DNA from: an uncultured Mucispirillum sp.
GTDB lineage: Bacteria; Chrysiogenota; Deferribacteres; Deferribacterales; Mucispirillaceae
Reading direction: 5' to 3'
Length of the DNA: 36,296 bases
NCBI GenBank assembly: GCA_944324495.1
Contig: CALUWN010000018.1
Coordinates: 1 to 36,296, forward strand
Shown: positions 204 to 26,004 of the stretch, piece after piece
How positions within the stretch are numbered: position 1 is the first letter of the stretch
Layout of the letters: each line of letters starts with the position of its first letter
Notes under the pieces: generated by a model
Database searches by the model: none
Told to the model about the DNA's origin: nothing
The model's input: the letters and a program-made list of their open reading frames with translations, nothing else
Translations under genes and position numbers: made by a program

Positions 204-320
204 TTTGGTGGTCATAGAGGGGAGGTTACACCTGTTCCCATACCGAACACAGCAGTTAAGGGCCCCATCGCCGAAGGTACTTGATGAAGGTAACATCTGG
301 GAGAATAGGACGCCGCCAAA
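204..320 (+). rRNA. rrf: 5S ribosomal RNA
   Basis: This is a 5S rRNA of about 117 bases. The 5' end TTTGGTGGT pairs with the 3' end GCCGCCAAA to form the terminal stem, and flanking GC...GC can extend it. Internal conserved blocks are easy to see: CCTGTTCCCATACCGAACAC, the AGCAGTTAAG block and the GGGAGAATAGGACGCCGCC end. It is the large-subunit 5S RNA and is followed directly by an intrinsic terminator. No 23S or 16S sequence is present, so either the rest of the operon lies to the left beyond the window or this is a detached 5S gene. The exact mature ends may differ by one to three bases. Confidence 0.95.
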
Positions 321-334
321 GCTAATAGATATAT

Positions 335-362
335 AAGGGTTATCATTTGATAACCCTTTTTT
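335..362 (+). terminator. Intrinsic terminator of the 5S transcript
   Basis: AAGGGTTATC (335-344) pairs perfectly with GATAACCCTT (349-358) around ATTT, and a run of T follows. It is placed about 15 bases after the 5S 3' end. Confidence 0.9.
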
Positions 363-402
363 GTTTTTATCTTTTTATTTTATACTGCGTTATTTAAAAA
401 TT
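357..402 (+). repeat. Dispersed repeat R2, copy A
   Basis: Bases 357-380 are identical to 663-686, and the similarity continues through CGTTATTTA to about 402 (copy B to 708). Copy A includes the T-run of the 5S terminator, so the 3' flank of the 5S gene appears to have been duplicated about 300 bases downstream. Confidence 0.55.
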
Positions 403-12079: not shown

Positions 12080-12409
12080 ATGACTGATGTATACAAATTA
12101 ATTGCCAACATGATTTGTAATTCAATAAATGGAAAATGGGATAAAGCAATTGTGGAAATAGAATCCTCTCTAGGAAGAATGCTATCAACCAATGCCTATT
12201 ATTTTTATAACAATGAAGAAAAACATGCATTTGAATTAATTGAGGATAATCAAAGCGAAGATTTGGGAGAAAATGTTTTTGCTCTTCAAGCATCTATGTC
12301 TCCTGAGCATAAATGGAACAAAGCTGTTTACACACTTGAAAAGGACGGTCATTTTGATATGACATTTGAATGGGATCAGGCTCTTCAAGACGAATGGGAT
12401 AATGCATAG
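12080..12409 (+). CDS. YezG/DUF600-type immunity protein
   Basis: This 109-residue acidic protein resembles YezG-family immunity proteins. Visible family features are the start KLIANMICNSINGKWDKAI, the YYFYNNEEKHAFEL block, and a C-terminal W-rich end (MTFEWDQALQDEWDNA). YezG-type proteins neutralise YeeF-type nuclease toxins, and the remnant just upstream has exactly that nuclease type, so the pair is a cognate cassette whose toxin is dead. AAGGAAACG precedes the ATG. It probably gives the bearer protection against neighbours that carry the intact toxin. Function is inferred from family and context. Confidence 0.78.
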   Translation: MTDVYKLIANMICNSINGKWDKAIVEIESSLGRMLSTNAYYFYNNEEKHAFELIEDNQSEDLGENVFALQASMSPEHKWNKAVYTLEKDGHFDMTFEWDQALQDEWDNA

Positions 12410-12418
12410 GATTAATAT

Positions 12419-13213
12419 ATGACAAAAATAACCGGAACAAACACAATTTTTGATGAGACAATAGATCCTATTGTTGATCCTATTTATGACATTATTTGCA
12501 AATCGTCAATTAGAGGAATAATGTCAAATGTAAAACAACTTGTAGATATATCCCCTGTTAAATTTAAATTTGGATTCAAATTCTATAACTATTACGATGT
12601 TATTTTTGAATATAAAAATGAAAGATTAACTTGGAAAGCAATCTCTTGCAAAAAAGATGAAGAAGAAATTACAAATAATAAGTTGTATAATCCAATGGAA
12701 AGTCAAGAAATAGTAAACGACATAGACAATATTTTAAAGTTGACAATTCCACAGAAATATTTACAAGTATTAAACGGAAAGAATTATGAGTCTTTTGAAA
12801 AAAGATTAGACTATATTACAGTTTCATCAAAAGAAGAATTCAATGAACTAAAACGAGCTGAAAAAAATGACAATTTTAAGACAACAGATGAATGTTTGGA
12901 TTTTATGATTGAAGAGGTAAAAAAAGCATTTGGTTCAGATGCTGAAAACTTTAAAATCATAGATAATTATGATTATCATGGCTGGCATATAAATTTTACA
13001 TTTGAAGCATACAAATCATTTACAGTAAAAATACATCATGAACTTGCAGATGGAGCTCAGATTGTAATAGGAAGTGATGAACAAATAAGAAATGGAAATT
13101 ATGAACATTGGTTTAATATCCCCATGTCTGCAAATGATTTTGGAAGATTAACAGCAAAAGAATTCCTTGCCCAATTAAAGCAGAATCTTGAGTTACGTCT
13201 TAATAAGTATTAA
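12419..13213 (+). CDS. Unrecognised immunity-like protein with an Imm74-type N-terminus
   Basis: I do not recognise the bulk of this 264-residue protein. Its first nine residues, MTKITGTNT, are identical to those of the Imm74-type gene at 14104, and the nucleotides there are nearly the same. After that the sequences have nothing in common. The rest is rich in Lys, Asn and aromatic residues, has no signal peptide or membrane segment, and carries two apparent halves (about 20-130 and 135-264), the second with WHINFTFEAYKSFTVKIHHE. Position inside an immunity array and the borrowed start suggest an immunity protein made by recombination at a conserved gene start. Confidence in function is low. 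Confidence 0.6.
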   Translation: MTKITGTNTIFDETIDPIVDPIYDIICKSSIRGIMSNVKQLVDISPVKFKFGFKFYNYYDVIFEYKNERLTWKAISCKKDEEEITNNKLYNPMESQEIVNDIDNILKLTIPQKYLQVLNGKNYESFEKRLDYITVSSKEEFNELKRAEKNDNFKTTDECLDFMIEEVKKAFGSDAENFKIIDNYDYHGWHINFTFEAYKSFTVKIHHELADGAQIVIGSDEQIRNGNYEHWFNIPMSANDFGRLTAKEFLAQLKQNLELRLNKY

Positions 13214-13255
13214 CCACCTGTCACCCTACAGAAAAGACATTTTGAAAAATCAAGG

Positions 13256-13474
13256 TTGTGGAATACTATTGTCATAAAAAAAGAGTGGATATCCTGGATA
13301 ATAACCACATTGAGAAATCTTACCTGGTTGGATTATAATTCAGGTGGAAAAGAAATTGTAAAGGAATATGAGGACTGTGAATTGGCTATAATAATGTTCT
13401 TATTAGAGGGAGAGTATTCATTTATTAAAATATTCCCCGTTTGGAAGGATGAAGTTGATATTCAAACATTTTAA
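13256..13474 (+). pseudogene. Degenerate short frame in the immunity array
   Basis: A 72-residue frame opens with TTG at 13256, in the same frame as the stop of the preceding gene, and ends at 13474. The second half (SGGKEIVKEYEDCELAIIMF then SFIKIFPVWKDEVDIQTF) looks like real protein. The first half looks random, while another frame over 13279-13341 reads KRVDILDNNHIEKSYLVGL. This suggests a frameshifted or truncated immunity gene. No ribosome-binding site supports the TTG. The family is not recognised. Confidence 0.4.
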
Positions 13475-13561
13475 TTCAAAAACTTATTTGTAATGAATTA
13501 CAAACAATCCGAAAGGAATTATTGAGTGGTTTCTTAAAAATTCACAATTAGGGGGGGATAT

Positions 13562-14101
13562 ATGAAAATATACATTTTAGAAACAGATATTGATAATTAC
13601 AAAGGATGCTATATAAAAAACGAAGAAACTGATAGAAAAATTTTACGTCAGTTTAATAAAGGTATAGAAATAAGCATTCCTTCTGATTTTCAATTAGAAT
13701 ACGATAGAGATTCTAATAATCCTGCAGGGGATATTTGTGAATGTTATGATTGTAGAGGATTCTTCATAAATAAAAAATTTATGGCAGTACTTTCTGACAT
13801 TTCTCAAATAAATATAAGATTTGTTCCGCTTAATGACGATTTTGTACTATTAAATAATTTAACTGTGTTGGACTGCTTAGATCGAAAAAAAACTAAATAT
13901 AAGTATTTTGAGAATGATATTTTAGGTGTTGAGCAATATTATTTTAAGGAAAACAATTATCCACCTCTTTTTCAAGTTAAACTACAAAATCAATTAATTA
14001 TTCGAGATTATTTTGTAACAGATGAGTTTATAGATATTGTTAAGAAAAACAATATCAAAGGTTTAAAATTTAAGGAAATCTGGGACAGAGAAAAGGACTA
14101 A
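13562..14101 (+). CDS. Imm11/DUF1629-like immunity protein
   Basis: This is a 179-residue cytoplasmic protein without signal or membrane segment. The C-terminal pattern resembles the Imm11 (DUF1629) family: PPLFQVKLQNQLIIRDYFVTDEF (split PPLFQVKLQ and LIIRDYFVTDEF), then KKNNIKGLKFKEIWDRE. The family usually ends with a phrase such as GVxFxxVWD. The first half includes DFQLEYDRDSNNPAGDICEC and is variable in the family. AGGGGGGGAT just upstream of the ATG is an unusually long purine run serving as the ribosome-binding site. It lies in an array with other immunity genes and no matching toxin in this window. Confidence 0.6.
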   Translation: MKIYILETDIDNYKGCYIKNEETDRKILRQFNKGIEISIPSDFQLEYDRDSNNPAGDICECYDCRGFFINKKFMAVLSDISQINIRFVPLNDDFVLLNNLTVLDCLDRKKTKYKYFENDILGVEQYYFKENNYPPLFQVKLQNQLIIRDYFVTDEFIDIVKKNNIKGLKFKEIWDREKD

Positions 14102-14758: not shown

Positions 14759-14811
14759 TTTGAGGCGAACCCCATTTATTTGTCCAATAAATGGGGTTCG
14801 CCTCAAATTTT
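14759..14811. terminator. Long hairpin between convergent genes (repeat copy 1, bidirectional terminator)
   Basis: GAGGCGAACCCCATTTATT (14762-14780) pairs perfectly with its complement at 14786-14804 around TGTCC. T/A pairs extend the stem to 22 and TTTT follows on the plus strand. The central 29 bases are identical to those of the hairpin at 21507-21535. Both copies lie between convergent gene ends. Confidence 0.75.
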
Positions 14812-15247
14812 ATCTACTAATAAAATAAATCTCTGTGCCGTTTTCCTGCAGGCTTAACTTTTCTGAAGTATTTATTATAGAATAATATGATTGATTATCT
14901 TGATAGAGTGTGTAATTATCTTTTGATATAAGAAATGCACGTATTCTGCCCGGTAAGAAAACATCAGCTGATTTATTATCATCAGAAAAAATAACGAAAG
15001 CTTGTAAATCATTTCTGTTATATGAATTTGATTTTTGGAATTTTAATGCTTCTTCATATACAAGCACACACTTATTTTTTGCAAAAGAATAAGCATAGCC
15101 TTTACTGCTGTCACACCCATATTCATCTATATTAGAAATAAAGGAAGATTTTGTAAAAATAATAACAAGAACAAGACCAAGAGCAATTAAAATAATAACG
15201 GAAAGCATAGAAAAATTAAAAGCTTTAAAGGCTTTTTTTCCGTCCAT
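14810..15247 (-). CDS. Membrane-anchored protein, unknown, third gene of the IorAB-like operon
   Basis: This is a 145-residue protein. Residues 10-32 form a membrane helix (FNFSMLSVIILIALGLVLVI), and the rest would lie in the periplasm. A Cys pair occurs in GCDSSKGYAYSFAKNKCVLVYEEA (split GCDSSKGYAYSF and AKNKCVLVYEEA), similar in layout to small exported domains that have GC...GY.WC...KC motifs, though the middle Cys is missing here. The tail FLPGRIRAFLISKDNYTLYQ and GTEIYFISR is beta-like. Its start ATG overlaps the stop of the upstream gene by one base, so the three genes are translated together. I cannot assign a function. Confidence 0.7.
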   Translation of the reverse strand: MDGKKAFKAFNFSMLSVIILIALGLVLVIIFTKSSFISNIDEYGCDSSKGYAYSFAKNKCVLVYEEALKFQKSNSYNRNDLQAFVIFSDDNKSADVFLPGRIRAFLISKDNYTLYQDNQSYYSIINTSEKLSLQENGTEIYFISR

Positions 15248-15720
15248 TAATCAATATCCGTCATTAATTCATTAATTGCTATTTGAATTGCAAAAGGAAG
15301 CCTGCCTAATGAGCCATTGAAGGCTTCTAACTCTTTTTTCATATTTTTTTCAAGCAGATAGCCTGTAACATAAGCAGGTGATAAGTCGCTGATTATTTTA
15401 AATACAGCACCCATTGCTTTCCAGTAATGGATAGCATCAGGGGTTGGGTCTGCTTCAAGGGTAGAAGGTGAAACCGTAATAGTTTTATCGTTTTCAACAC
15501 TGCCTACTAAATCATCAAAATCAATAACAATATCACTGTATATATTTTTTGAACTACCTTTTAATAAAATATAATTTTTTGATGGTGAATAAGGTGTGTT
15601 TTTTTCAAACCCTTCTATATCCACTATATAATCAGACTGAGAAGCACTATAAGTTAATAGTTTTATACAATCATCATAAGTTTTAAAACGGTATCCTGCT
15701 AAAAAAATACGGTAATTCAT
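15247..15720 (-). CDS. Divergent IorB-like protein without the GxGGQG motif
   Basis: I place this 157-residue protein with the IorB (indolepyruvate ferredoxin oxidoreductase beta) fold on layout. It opens MNYRIFLAGYRFKTYDDCIK where IorB has a strand ending in GVGGQG. Its C-terminal part KAMGAVFKIISDLSPAYVTG followed by EKNMKKELEAFNGSLGR matches IorB's NMVMLGAL...N..AF..G end. The nucleotide/thiamine-contacting glycine motif is replaced by GYRFKT, and the middle is shortened. It overlaps the IorA-like gene upstream as ATGA. The resemblance is weak, but the neighbour makes it more likely. Alternatively it is an unrelated small protein. Confidence 0.5.
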   Translation of the reverse strand: MNYRIFLAGYRFKTYDDCIKLLTYSASQSDYIVDIEGFEKNTPYSPSKNYILLKGSSKNIYSDIVIDFDDLVGSVENDKTITVSPSTLEADPTPDAIHYWKAMGAVFKIISDLSPAYVTGYLLEKNMKKELEAFNGSLGRLPFAIQIAINELMTDID

Positions 15721-17027
15721 GAAATCGCTCCTTTACCGCACACTGCTTTACAAGCAAGGCAGCCATTACACATATCAGCATCTACAAGCATATTGTTAGC
15801 AGCCTTATAAATAGCAGGGCATAATGTTTTTTCTATAACATTACATGGTGTATTATCCTTTGAACAGCTGCATTTATTAAGTTTTACTCTCACTTTTGAG
15901 AAATCCTTAATATTATTACAACTATACGGATATAAAGTATTTTTTGTATTACCTAGTTTTTTAGGGTGTTTTATAAATGTAAAACCATTTATTTTATTAA
16001 TACCAGTATCACTAAGCAATATCATTCTGCCACATTTAGTTAAAAATTTGTAGTAATGTGGTTTATATGATGAAGCATAGCCCACAAAAAGAGTAGGTAC
16101 TTTTATTTCGCTGGAAATTATACCAATATAGCCATCTATTGATATAAAGTTAAGCTCACTAAAAGCTTTTTTTACACCTTCGCATTTAATATCAGTATAT
16201 ATAATGGTATCTGTATCAACACCTTTGTTTAATATATTAACAAACGGACACCCCGGGCATAATAAATCATTCACTTTAGGGAATACTCTATCTGCCACAC
16301 TATTAACTTCAAGTGTTATATTATAGTTTTCATAGAAGAATGATAAAAGAGCTTCTTTTTCGCTTTCATACACATCTACTACTTTTGATTTAAGAAATGT
16401 AATATTTTCTGTATGAGCAGCAGGCAGAAAATAATCTGGAAAAAAGCCATGTTTTGAATGAAGTGAAAAAACTTCACCATTATATTCTTTATTAAAACTT
16501 TGCTTAAGACTTTTGCTTATATTATCATATATCTCTTTAAGTTCATCTTGAGAAATAGTTTGCTTAAAGGTAGCTTTACTAATGTATGGAGATATTCTAC
16601 CCATATCGCTGTTTGATTTATTAAACTCAGCATAATTATTAAGAGCATTTGCTGTGACCACAACAGTAACAGGTACTTTATACTCTAATGTAAGCTTTAA
16701 ACTCATTGTGAGTTTTGCAATAATTTCTTCCGCTGTTTTAATAACAACCACTGGCGTGCATATTTTTTTAGGAAGAGTAAATGTAACAAGTAAACACTCT
16801 GCACGTAATGGTGTGTTAATATGAAAGAATGGCAGTTCATTAAATATACCTAAAGCTTTACTACCAATTACTGCTGATGAGTATAAAAAATCAAGGGCAT
16901 CATGCTCATCTACAAAATTTTTAGATGATTCAAGACCCAAAGTGTTACTACTGCCTGCATAAATACTGGCAAAATTGTAACGTTCCAAAATGTCTTTAAT
17001 TATTTCTTTACTGTTTCTAATATCCAT
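15717..17027 (-). CDS. IorA-like 2-oxoacid:ferredoxin oxidoreductase homologue with degenerate TPP site
   Basis: The 436-residue protein resembles a shortened IorA (usually about 600). LCPGCPF at 256-262 corresponds to the family's LCxGCPHR. YTDIKC at 277-282 matches the GDIGCYT region. FVGYASSYKPHYY at 315-326 stands where the thiamine-diphosphate/Mg motif GDSTFxHSG should be. SDTGINKINGF at 339-349 replaces DNxxTAMTGxQ. The Asp and Asn that hold Mg are therefore absent. The C-terminus keeps a ferredoxin-like region: C386, C388, C395, C403, then CNGCLACKAVC with Cys 420, 423, 426 and 430. So electron transfer may persist without the usual catalysis. There is almost no leader: the predicted start lies about three bases before the ATG. 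Confidence 0.7.
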   Translation of the reverse strand: MDIRNSKEIIKDILERYNFASIYAGSSNTLGLESSKNFVDEHDALDFLYSSAVIGSKALGIFNELPFFHINTPLRAECLLVTFTLPKKICTPVVVIKTAEEIIAKLTMSLKLTLEYKVPVTVVVTANALNNYAEFNKSNSDMGRISPYISKATFKQTISQDELKEIYDNISKSLKQSFNKEYNGEVFSLHSKHGFFPDYFLPAAHTENITFLKSKVVDVYESEKEALLSFFYENYNITLEVNSVADRVFPKVNDLLCPGCPFVNILNKGVDTDTIIYTDIKCEGVKKAFSELNFISIDGYIGIISSEIKVPTLFVGYASSYKPHYYKFLTKCGRMILLSDTGINKINGFTFIKHPKKLGNTKNTLYPYSCNNIKDFSKVRVKLNKCSCSKDNTPCNVIEKTLCPAIYKAANNMLVDADMCNGCLACKAVCGKGAIS

Positions 17028-21561: not shown

Positions 21562-23214
21562 TTAATTACTTTTTTCTCTTATTTCTACTCGTCTTATTTT
21601 ACCGCTTATTGTTTTTGGCAGTTTATCCACAATCTCTACAATACGCGGATATTTATAAGGAGCTGTAGTTTTTTTCACATATTCTTGAATATCTTTAATA
21701 AGCTCATCTTTATCAGCATTTTTATATTCATCAGCTACTACAACGGTTGCTTTAATTACCTGCCCCCTTAATTCATCAGGAGCACCAGTAACAGCACATT
21801 CCACAACAGCCTTATGTGTCATAAGTACGCTTTCCACTTCAAATGGGCTTATTCTATAACCTGAGCTTTTAATAATATCATCAGCTCTGCCTACAAACCA
21901 AAAATAGCCGTCTTTATCTCGCCATGCAATATCACCAGTATAGTAAATATTATCATGCCAAACGGCATAAGTTTTTTCTTTATCTCTGTAGTATTCTTTA
22001 AATAAGCCTAAAGGTTTTTTCTTATCTGTCCTAATAACAATCTGCCCATGTTCGCCAACTTCACAGCTTTTGCCTTCGCTGTTTATAATATCCACATCAT
22101 ACTGAGGGTTTGCAAGCCCCATAGAGCCGGGCTTTGGTTCTACCCAAGGAAGTGTTACAACAGTTAATGTGGTTTCAGTTTGCCCAAAACCTTCTCTTAA
22201 TTTAATACCTGTCATCTCATAAAATGTATCATACACAGCAGGATTTAAGGCTTCCCCTGCAATTGTGCACCATTTTAAAGATGAAAGGTCTGTATTTAAA
22301 ATATCTTCCCTTATTAAAAACCTAAATACAGTAGGGGGAGCACAAAATGACGTAATTTTATACTTTTCAATAGCTTTTAATATTTCAGCAGGGGTGAATT
22401 TTTCATGGTCATATACAAAAATATTAGCACCTGCTATCCACTGCCCGTATAGTTTTCCCCATACAGCTTTACCCCAGCCAGTATCAGAAATAGTTAAGTG
22501 CAGGCTGTTTTCATCAAGGTTATGCCAGTATTTACCTGTTATAATGTGTCCTAATGGATATAAAAAGTCATGAGCTGCCATTTTTGGGTTTGCTGTAGTG
22601 CCTGAAGTAAAATAAATAAGTGAAATATCATCGTTATTATTAACGTGTTCAGGACGCACAAATTCTGGAGCTTCGTTTATGCCCTTATGGAAATCTTCCC
22701 AGCCTTCTGGAATAATTGGACCAATAGAAACAGTATGTTCTAATGTAGGGGAGTCTGGTTTTGCTTTATTTACGTGTTCAATAATATTTTTGTCCCCACA
22801 GGCAACAATCATTTTAATATCTGCTGCATTATTTCTGTAAACAATATCTTTCTCAGTTAAAAGGTGAGTGGCAGGTATTGCTATTGCTCCAAGTTTGGAA
22901 AGCCCAAGCATAGAAAACCAAAACTCAAAACGACGCTTTAATATAAGCATAACAGTATCGCCTTTTTTAATACCAAGGCGTGCAAAAAAAGATGCTGTCA
23001 TATCAGAAAATTTTTTGAAATCAGCAAATGTGAAATCAAAGCGTTTGCCTTCATCATTTGTCCAAAGCATAGCTTTTTTCTTCGGTTCTTTTTCAGCCCA
23101 GGCATCTACCACATCGTATGCAAAGTTAAAATTATTTGGTACTGCTACTTCATAATTAAGTGCAAAGTCTTCCTGAGATGAAAATGTTATTTGTTTTAAA
23201 AATTTTTTTAACAT
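21562..23214 (-). CDS. Acyl-CoA synthetase, ACSM/medium-chain-like
   Basis: This AMP-forming acyl-CoA ligase has 550 residues. Motifs are the ATP loop YFTSGTTANPKMAAH (201-215), GFGQTETT (342-349), YTGDIAWRDKDGYFWFVGRA (425-444), DDIIKSSGYRI (445-455) and the catalytic Lys 539 in TISGKIRR. The domain order and the N-terminal YEVAVPNNFNFAYDVVDAWA resemble medium-chain/butyrate ligases of the ACSM group rather than acetyl-CoA synthetase, which is about 100 residues longer. The natural acid cannot be read. It lies alone on the minus strand, divergent from tpx with a 230-base AT-rich gap, and ends at the repeat hairpin shared with glyQ. Confidence 0.88.
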   Translation of the reverse strand: MLKKFLKQITFSSQEDFALNYEVAVPNNFNFAYDVVDAWAEKEPKKKAMLWTNDEGKRFDFTFADFKKFSDMTASFFARLGIKKGDTVMLILKRRFEFWFSMLGLSKLGAIAIPATHLLTEKDIVYRNNAADIKMIVACGDKNIIEHVNKAKPDSPTLEHTVSIGPIIPEGWEDFHKGINEAPEFVRPEHVNNNDDISLIYFTSGTTANPKMAAHDFLYPLGHIITGKYWHNLDENSLHLTISDTGWGKAVWGKLYGQWIAGANIFVYDHEKFTPAEILKAIEKYKITSFCAPPTVFRFLIREDILNTDLSSLKWCTIAGEALNPAVYDTFYEMTGIKLREGFGQTETTLTVVTLPWVEPKPGSMGLANPQYDVDIINSEGKSCEVGEHGQIVIRTDKKKPLGLFKEYYRDKEKTYAVWHDNIYYTGDIAWRDKDGYFWFVGRADDIIKSSGYRISPFEVESVLMTHKAVVECAVTGAPDELRGQVIKATVVVADEYKNADKDELIKDIQEYVKKTTAPYKYPRIVEIVDKLPKTISGKIRRVEIREKSN

Positions 23215-24297: not shown

Positions 24298-26004
24298 ATG
24301 AAAAAAGTATTTTTAGCTTCATTATTTTTATTATCATTAACTATTAATTCTTATGCGAAAGAGAAAATTGAGCCATCTTTTGACTGTAAAAAAGCCAGCA
24401 CAAAAGTAGAGAAAATGATATGTTCTGATGCAGAACTTGCAAAATCAGATAAAGAATTAAATGAACTTTATAATAAATATATAGAGTTTATATCAAATAA
24501 CCTGCCAGATTATAAAGATATAGTGATAAAAGCCCAAAGAAACTGGATGAGAGAGCGTAATAAAATTACAGATATTCAGAATTTAAAGGTGCATTATAAC
24601 CGTATTATATATGAATTAGGGGATGCATTTAATCCGGGATATTCTCCAGCAGGTTTATCAGACTATGATGATGAAGATGTGGCTTATTATTGGAAATATA
24701 AACCAATATCGTTTTACTTTATGAATGGCTATGTAAGAGATGCAAAAAAACCAGTGTATGTATTATACAATAATGATGCAATATGCCAAAATTTATCATC
24801 ATTAAAAATAATTGATTTTAATGAGTTTATCTCAAAAGCAGAACCTTTAAAAGAATATTATCAAGAGCTTAGCGATGGTTCTATGCAGAAAACAACATTG
24901 TTGGATGGAGTAAATTTCTATTTAGCAAAATATAATAATGGATATTTTGGTCTTAGAGATGGAAAATTTCCTTTACCACTTAAATATTTAAAGAAAAACG
25001 AAAAAGGATATTATGAACCATTTATTAAAAGAAAAAGTTATGGATACGAATATAAATCTATTCCAGAAGATTTAGTTTGGAGCAATATTGTTCGTATGCA
25101 GCAGGACGAACCACTTAATGATATGGGTGACAGACAAAGCATATATACATTTAGTTTGCCAGTTGTACATAAAAATAATATGTATATCAAAGAATTAACA
25201 ATATATAATGATATAGAATATTATGGTATAGATTATGATAAAGACCCACCAGTATATGATAAATCAGTTGTTATAAAAGTTGAAAGCCCACTTGTAAGAA
25301 TTTTTTCATATAATAATGACGGTAGTAGAAAACTTGCTTGTGTTTATACTGAAAATAAAGATAGTTTAAATAAACAATATAAAAGTTTTTTTAGAAAATA
25401 TTCAGACTATGAAGCTGCCATGCATATTGCAATTTATTTAGATAAACCTATTAAGTTTTCAGATTATTTAGATAATGTTGAACCAAAAGGTAGTGAAACA
25501 CCTTATATTAAGCAGACTTTGAAAGATACTGAATTTACAGAGGCAGAAGCAGTAGCAGAAGTAAAAAGGCAGATAGATTATTATCTTGCATGGGAGAAAG
25601 GCAAAACTTTCAAACCTGATGAATGTCAAGCGGAATATGAAACAAAATGTTCTATATTTATGGGGCAAGCCAGACAGGGAGATGAAGGGTTTGAAATCAC
25701 AAAATCTATAACTAAATTTAAAAGTTATGAGGAATTTTATAATGCAACAAAACAGTATAATATTTATTATGAATATGAAATACCTGCCAAGTTTCCTGCG
25801 AAGACTACAATGTATGAAAATATAGCTTTTGTTTACTATAAAGGAATGGTTGGAATAGGTGTTTTTGGAGATGATACCAACTTTAGACATCATGACAGCA
25901 CAAAATATGCATTAGTGGATTTTGAATTATACCGTAAAACAAGTAACGGATTTATAGAGCATATTGATGACGGAAAAGATTTCTGGTTTAACTGGAGATA
26001 TTAA
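24298..26004 (+). CDS. Secreted protein with N-terminal LprI-like (DUF1311) domain
   Basis: This 568-residue exported protein starts with a signal peptide (residues 1-20, MKKVFLASLFLLSLTINSYA, cut before KEKIE). The DUF1311/LprI-like domain covers about 27-105: FDCKKASTKVEKMICSDAEL with two Cys, then ELNELYNKYI and KAQRNWMRERN. LprI-type domains inhibit lysozyme in some bacteria. The remaining 450 residues are rich in Tyr, Lys and Asp, match nothing I recognise and contain one further Cys pair (ECQAEYETKCS). AGGAAGAGGG precedes the ATG. It is followed by two decayed copies and a second LprI-domain gene, so the family has expanded here. Confidence 0.72.
   Translation: MKKVFLASLFLLSLTINSYAKEKIEPSFDCKKASTKVEKMICSDAELAKSDKELNELYNKYIEFISNNLPDYKDIVIKAQRNWMRERNKITDIQNLKVHYNRIIYELGDAFNPGYSPAGLSDYDDEDVAYYWKYKPISFYFMNGYVRDAKKPVYVLYNNDAICQNLSSLKIIDFNEFISKAEPLKEYYQELSDGSMQKTTLLDGVNFYLAKYNNGYFGLRDGKFPLPLKYLKKNEKGYYEPFIKRKSYGYEYKSIPEDLVWSNIVRMQQDEPLNDMGDRQSIYTFSLPVVHKNNMYIKELTIYNDIEYYGIDYDKDPPVYDKSVVIKVESPLVRIFSYNNDGSRKLACVYTENKDSLNKQYKSFFRKYSDYEAAMHIAIYLDKPIKFSDYLDNVEPKGSETPYIKQTLKDTEFTEAEAVAEVKRQIDYYLAWEKGKTFKPDECQAEYETKCSIFMGQARQGDEGFEITKSITKFKSYEEFYNATKQYNIYYEYEIPAKFPAKTTMYENIAFVYYKGMVGIGVFGDDTNFRHHDSTKYALVDFELYRKTSNGFIEHIDDGKDFWFNWRY

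Follow-up and report, generated by a model that had tools for sequence, protein, structure and literature searches.

The window analyzed here (36,296 nucleotides of contig CALUWN010000018.1 from an uncultured Mucispirillum sp. whose genome is 2.43 Mb) carries three overlapping genes on the minus strand, as the sequence-only reading had described, and their products are here called A, B and C (Table 1). The last codons of A overlap the start of B (ATGA), and the stop codon of B shares one nucleotide with the start of C. Divergent from A lies argD, and beyond it are argF, argG and a gene resembling that of a glycyl-tRNA synthetase alpha subunit (names read from the translations). Other parts of the window are of separate interest. 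Downstream of the cassette is a run of small genes, among them one for a YezG-like immunity protein and one with a weak match to Imm11, and the run suggests a polymorphic-toxin immunity island. About 4.5 kb from the cassette is a gene resembling those of AMP-binding acyl/aryl-CoA ligases, enzymes whose genes are often found beside canonical iorAB. Another product of the window, 568 aa long, carries an LprI (lysozyme inhibitor) domain at its N terminus, the host of the gene being a gut mucus bacterium.

Table 1. Genes, domains and predicted cluster ligands of the A-B cassette, with other features of the window.
Feature	Position	Strand	Description
Protein A, 436 aa	15717..17027	-	IorA-derived alpha-beta-ferredoxin fusion, thiamine-diphosphate site lost
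Protein B, 157 aa	15247..15720	-	predicted IorB-type (OFOR gamma) fold; lacks both GxGGQG and HGMxQRGG
Protein C, 145 aa	14810..15247	-	predicted single-pass membrane protein; outside the conserved A-B pair
A residues 1-250			alpha (Pyr-type) domains
A residues about 251-372			beta (PP-type) remnant
A residues 373-436			two-cluster ferredoxin domain
A residues 253-262, LCPGCPF (C257, C260)	16242..16271	-	two predicted proximal [4Fe-4S] ligands; 24/24
A residues 278-282, TDIKC (C282)	16182..16196	-	third predicted proximal ligand; 24/24, 21 or 22 residues after the CxGC Cys
A residues 366-371 with PYSC (C370)	15915..15932	-	fourth predicted proximal ligand; 24/24
Ferredoxin domain, A residues 382-436	15720..15884	-	eight Cys, two predicted [4Fe-4S] clusters
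Run of small genes	12080..14101	+	possible polymorphic-toxin immunity island
YezG-like immunity protein	12080..12409	+	within the run of small genes
Weak Imm11 match	13562..14101	+	within the run of small genes
AMP-binding ligase-like gene	21562..23214	-	acyl/aryl-CoA ligase-like
LprI-domain protein	24298..26004	+	568 aa

Searched against the standard family libraries, protein A matches at its ferredoxin end only, and with the TIGR03336 profile (IOR_alpha) it scores 23.9 bits, far below the cut-off of 650.9 that marks a functional IorA. Taken singly, 20 of 21 members of the A family match that same profile (best E 1.2e-10). From 21 relatives a profile of the A family was built and compared by hhalign with canonical IorA, represented by 18 proteins of which three come from outside the phylum and 15 from within it; the two align colinearly over 406 columns with 96.5% probability and an E value of 7e-10. 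Because a ferredoxin domain alone can yield such scores, both profiles were cut into segments; the three segments of A align with IorA in the correct order and each with its own counterpart, namely the ferredoxin segment (E 8e-14, score 67), the central segment containing CPGC...C (E 1.8e-6, score 41) and the N-terminal segment (E 0.002, score 30), whereas the latter two score only 11-18 when column-shuffled or reversed. A search of PDB sequences with the A profile returned ferredoxin domains only. An AlphaFold2 model of A (mean pLDDT 85, pTM 0.61) places residues 1-250 with the alpha chains of OFORs (Z 16), so the predicted fold is that of an OFOR, and the absence of an IorA fold, which would have spoken against the earlier proposal, is not what the model indicates. 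The colinear profile matches, the predicted fold and the domain order alpha, beta, ferredoxin agree: A is an IorA-derived alpha-beta-ferredoxin fusion.

The identity of protein B comes from structure and context. Its model (pLDDT 91, pTM 0.87) has OFOR gamma subunits or domains as its only structural matches, with Z from 13.2 to 7.2 (Foldseek E 3.2e-5; VIA Z 13.2), and the next proteins below them are NusE/ribosomal S10 proteins at Z 4.7. By sequence profile B reaches an hhalign probability of 0.4-0.5% with canonical IorB/POR, and Pfam POR matches none of 17 B members. An alpha-beta-ferredoxin chain with a separate gamma gene is also the arrangement of canonical iorAB copies. Position, size and modeled fold together identify B as an IorB-type gamma subunit, a link that sequence profiles alone do not show.

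In solved OFORs, Mg and thiamine diphosphate (TPP) are held by a Gly-Asp-Gly motif of the beta part together with an Asn, and a Glu of the alpha part activates TPP (PMC5020499). These elements are missing throughout the A-B family: GDx...DN, NEK (with the activating Glu) and KHVG are each present in 18/18 canonical IorA proteins and in 0/24 A proteins, and a stray GD[GSA] without DN in one of the 24 is read as chance. The A protein of the window has neither the Glu of NEK nor GDS...DN; as had been noticed from the letters of the sequence, GYASS and SDTGINK stand at the places of the canonical IGDST and LDNRxTxMTG, and the second frame opens MNYRIFLAGYRFKT where IorB has MKxNILMVGVGGQG. Likewise, GxGGQG and HGMxQRGG are found in all 17 canonical IorB proteins and in none of 20 B proteins. 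The stretch between the third and fourth proximal-cluster cysteines is 88 residues long in the window's A, compared with 147 in the canonical IorA of locus L038 (C362 to C509). Judged by these motifs, the TPP site is gone from every member of the A-B family.

The ligands of the iron-sulfur clusters have fared differently. The CxGC motif is a ligand of the proximal cluster in OFORs (PMC5020499). LCPGCPF, YTDIKC and the C-terminal CxxCxxCxxxC ferredoxin motif, all reported by the sequence-only reading, are present in A. Canonical IorA motifs CPGC, GDIGC and RPC align with cysteines 12, 15, 46 and 197 of the Sulfolobus tokodaii beta chain (5b48_B), which we take to be all four of its cluster ligands, and C370 of A corresponds to the Cys of RPC and to that at 197. 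The four proximal-cluster cysteines are kept in 24/24 A proteins, families f5 and f9 included, and the eight ferredoxin cysteines (C386, C388, C395, C403, C420, C423, C426 and C430 in the window) in 23/24, the exception (L019) being without two of them. In the 23 A proteins that have the first ferredoxin Cys, the PYSC-like Cys lies 16 residues ahead of it. The first ferredoxin motif has an unusual spacing, CxC...C...C; its cysteines (C386, C388, C395, C403), a second set in the ferredoxin domain, and the invariant C370 of PYSC add to what had been seen before. Among the 25 invariant residues of A are nine cysteines and one charged residue, whereas in canonical IorA 31 of 128 are charged. The cysteines of the OFOR electron path, proximal and ferredoxin alike, are thus in place, the clusters themselves being predicted. 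As the TPP motifs are absent and the cluster cysteines conserved, it appears that the catalytic parts have been lost and the electron wire kept, and the core of the earlier proposal, a non-catalytic homologue pair of IorA and IorB that retains its electron-transfer parts, is supported.

Loss of active-site motifs could also mean that A-B is the decaying remnant of an iorAB pseudogene, and it is here that selection and distribution are informative. Within Mucispirillum, pairwise dN/dS values (Nei-Gojobori) are 0.10-0.22 for A and 0.05-0.12 for B, against 0.09-0.14 for the yardstick argD and a looser 0.06-0.32 for C. Relatives are free of frameshifts, so the frames are preserved complete, as had been proposed, and A-B is by these substitution rates under strong purifying selection. 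With frames intact and selected across most families of the class, and with invariant cluster ligands, conservation and dN/dS make a pseudogene next to impossible.

Protein A is found in 34 of 51 genomes of the phylum Deferribacterota and B in 33, the sole difference being a genome (G024) cut by a contig end. Outside the phylum A was detected in 0/334 genomes at E<=1e-12, a first-look filter by which very distant relatives could be missed, and no plasmid-borne copies of A-B were found. Among the carriers are two genomes of 1.3 Mb, from a separate lineage of the class, that lack IorAB; Deferribacteres symbionts of the Rimicaris shrimp midgut have genomes of 1.25-1.36 Mb (PMC9636832). The non-carriers are family f6 (12 genomes), family f10 (three) and two incomplete genomes. 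Carriers of families f3 and f8 have the gene order AMMECR1(+) B(-) A(-) argD(+), while in two f6 genomes (G036, G019) argD lies right beside AMMECR1, leaving no space for a remnant of A-B, and coordinates likewise place the two side by side in G032. A comparison of loci L165 and L167 (f6) with L085 and L089 presents the same AMMECR1-argD surroundings without and with A-B, a clean empty site by which gain or loss could be dated. We read the empty site of f6 as a loss because f9, the class-level outgroup, carries A-B. The pair is ancient, is inherited vertically and is common to most of the class.

We hypothesize that A-B, without catalysis of its own, is a dedicated carrier or relay of electrons with three clusters on an IorAB scaffold, which is probably the correct reading. 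The two proteins would assemble into a complex that descends from indolepyruvate:ferredoxin oxidoreductase but neither binds TPP nor performs 2-oxoacid chemistry. Its proximal cluster, one buried [4Fe-4S] held by C257, C260, C282 and C370, would be reduced by an outside donor at the position of the former active site, and electrons would then travel via the two-cluster ferredoxin domain to an acceptor, or in the reverse direction. Cluster occupancy, formation of the A-B complex and electron transfer are each steps that we infer.

No conserved operon partner besides B was found. AMMECR1 is the convergent neighbor of B in families f2, f3, f7 and f8, but it is missing from the carriers Mucispirillum, g2 and f9 and present in the non-carrier f6, so the adjacency looks historical and AMMECR1 is rejected as a functional partner. 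Canonical IorA scores above the cut-off in most other families and is absent from Mucispirillum, g2 and f9; since these carriers lack both IorAB and AMMECR1, neither is an obligate partner. A second intact iorAB, for which the sequence-only reading had advised a search, is not found in the window's genome: it has no canonical iorA (0 above the TIGR03336 cut-off), a gene present in most other families of the order. Also considered was a gene resembling thiC next to A, which occurs in family f7 only. In genome G028 the gene directly upstream of A (L017, 2927-3574, minus strand) encodes a member of the FmdE family that bears a zinc finger of the DksA/TraR type.

In every A-B carrier tested there is a frame of about 1200 aa that contains POR and resembles a single-chain pyruvate:ferredoxin oxidoreductase (PFOR), and PFOR-linked ferredoxin metabolism is therefore the best lead to the electron source. 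In three of these carriers (G010, G046, G047) this frame contains the only OFOR gamma domain detected. The same frame raises the possibility that A-B serves an active OFOR, this PFOR being the most plausible one, as assembly factor, decoy or accessory subunit; since G019 has the PFOR without A-B, however, the enzyme does not require the pair, and its gene is unlinked to A-B, which leaves such a role very improbable.

A membrane-anchored third partner had also been proposed. A membrane protein is indeed encoded by the third frame, and its gene overlaps B: C has a short basic N-terminal tail, one hydrophobic segment and, beyond that segment, two invariant cysteines, and it has no match in Pfam or NCBIfam. 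The partnership is weak: the gene occurs in 10/10 Mucispirillum genomes and in no other among 60 genomes, C changes faster than either A or B, and the positive-inside rule would place its main domain outside the cytoplasm. C also enters into the idea that A-B is a sensor of redox state, oxygen or iron, with exposed clusters that change state and signal to a regulator or to a partner in the membrane, which in Mucispirillum would be C. No feature of A-B is more conserved than the cluster ligands and an invariant catalytic pattern is absent, as a sensor would have it, and M. schaedleri inhabits a micro-oxic mucosa, where it expresses systems that scavenge oxygen (PMC5285517). But the 22 neighborhoods compared contain no conserved linked regulator gene, C is restricted to one genus while A-B is class-wide, and a chain of three clusters exceeds the needs of a simple sensor; we regard a sensor as unlikely.

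The emptied TPP cavity by the proximal cluster might instead have become the active site of a new enzyme acting on another substrate. The beta remnant contains invariant S319, D340, Y368 and N372 near the proximal-cluster ligands, residues that could belong to such a site, and the gamma loops of B, whose dN/dS is low, would line the cavity. Against this, a single charged residue is found among the 25 invariant in A, and apart from the historical neighbors no metabolic gene is conserved in linkage, so a new enzyme seems quite unlikely. Put more broadly, A-B may be a metalloprotein found across the class whose old thiamine cavity, next to the proximal [4Fe-4S], now serves as a new catalytic or ligand-sensing site; such a new function arising from a dismantled oxidoreductase is a tentative possibility.

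The non-catalytic relay would be a complex of central metabolism whose cofactor chemistry has been lost in all subunits while its electron wire is still selected, and it lets one ask what use an oxidoreductase scaffold has without its reaction. The physiology of Mucispirillum, which is common in the mouse gut and expands during inflammation, would also gain a redox protein that is conserved but has no name. Automatic annotation will tend toward a bare "4Fe-4S protein" or "indolepyruvate oxidoreductase", the latter of which would mislead metabolic models. A search of the open literature turned up no published description of a TPP-less OFOR pair.

What is known, then, is the OFOR fold and the IorAB architecture; what is new is a pair that is, as read from its residues, non-catalytic. 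Like IorA/IorB (TIGR03336 plus a gamma subunit), A-B consists of an alpha-beta-ferredoxin single chain with a separate gamma gene downstream, and A shares with IorA the CPGC...C...C proximal-cluster cysteines and the two-cluster ferredoxin end. Unlike IorA, A is without the TPP-activating Glu and the GDS/DN Mg motif and is about 59 residues shorter between the third and fourth proximal-cluster cysteines (window A against the IorA of L038); unlike IorB, B is without GxGGQG and HGMxQRGG. The predicted folds resemble those of solved OFORs (PorABCD 9bt4, OorDABC 8ys5, KorAB 6n2n, StOFOR 5b46/5b48), with Z of 15-16 for residues 1-250 of A against alpha chains and of 10-13 for B against gamma chains or domains; solved OFORs bind TPP and oxidize 2-oxoacids, whereas the TPP ligands are missing in A-B. 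The eight-Cys C-terminal domain of A is like those of 2[4Fe-4S] ferredoxins and ferredoxin-domain electron relays, but in A it is joined to an OFOR body whose active site is gone; a further cluster is predicted there, and the chain is paired with a gamma-type subunit.
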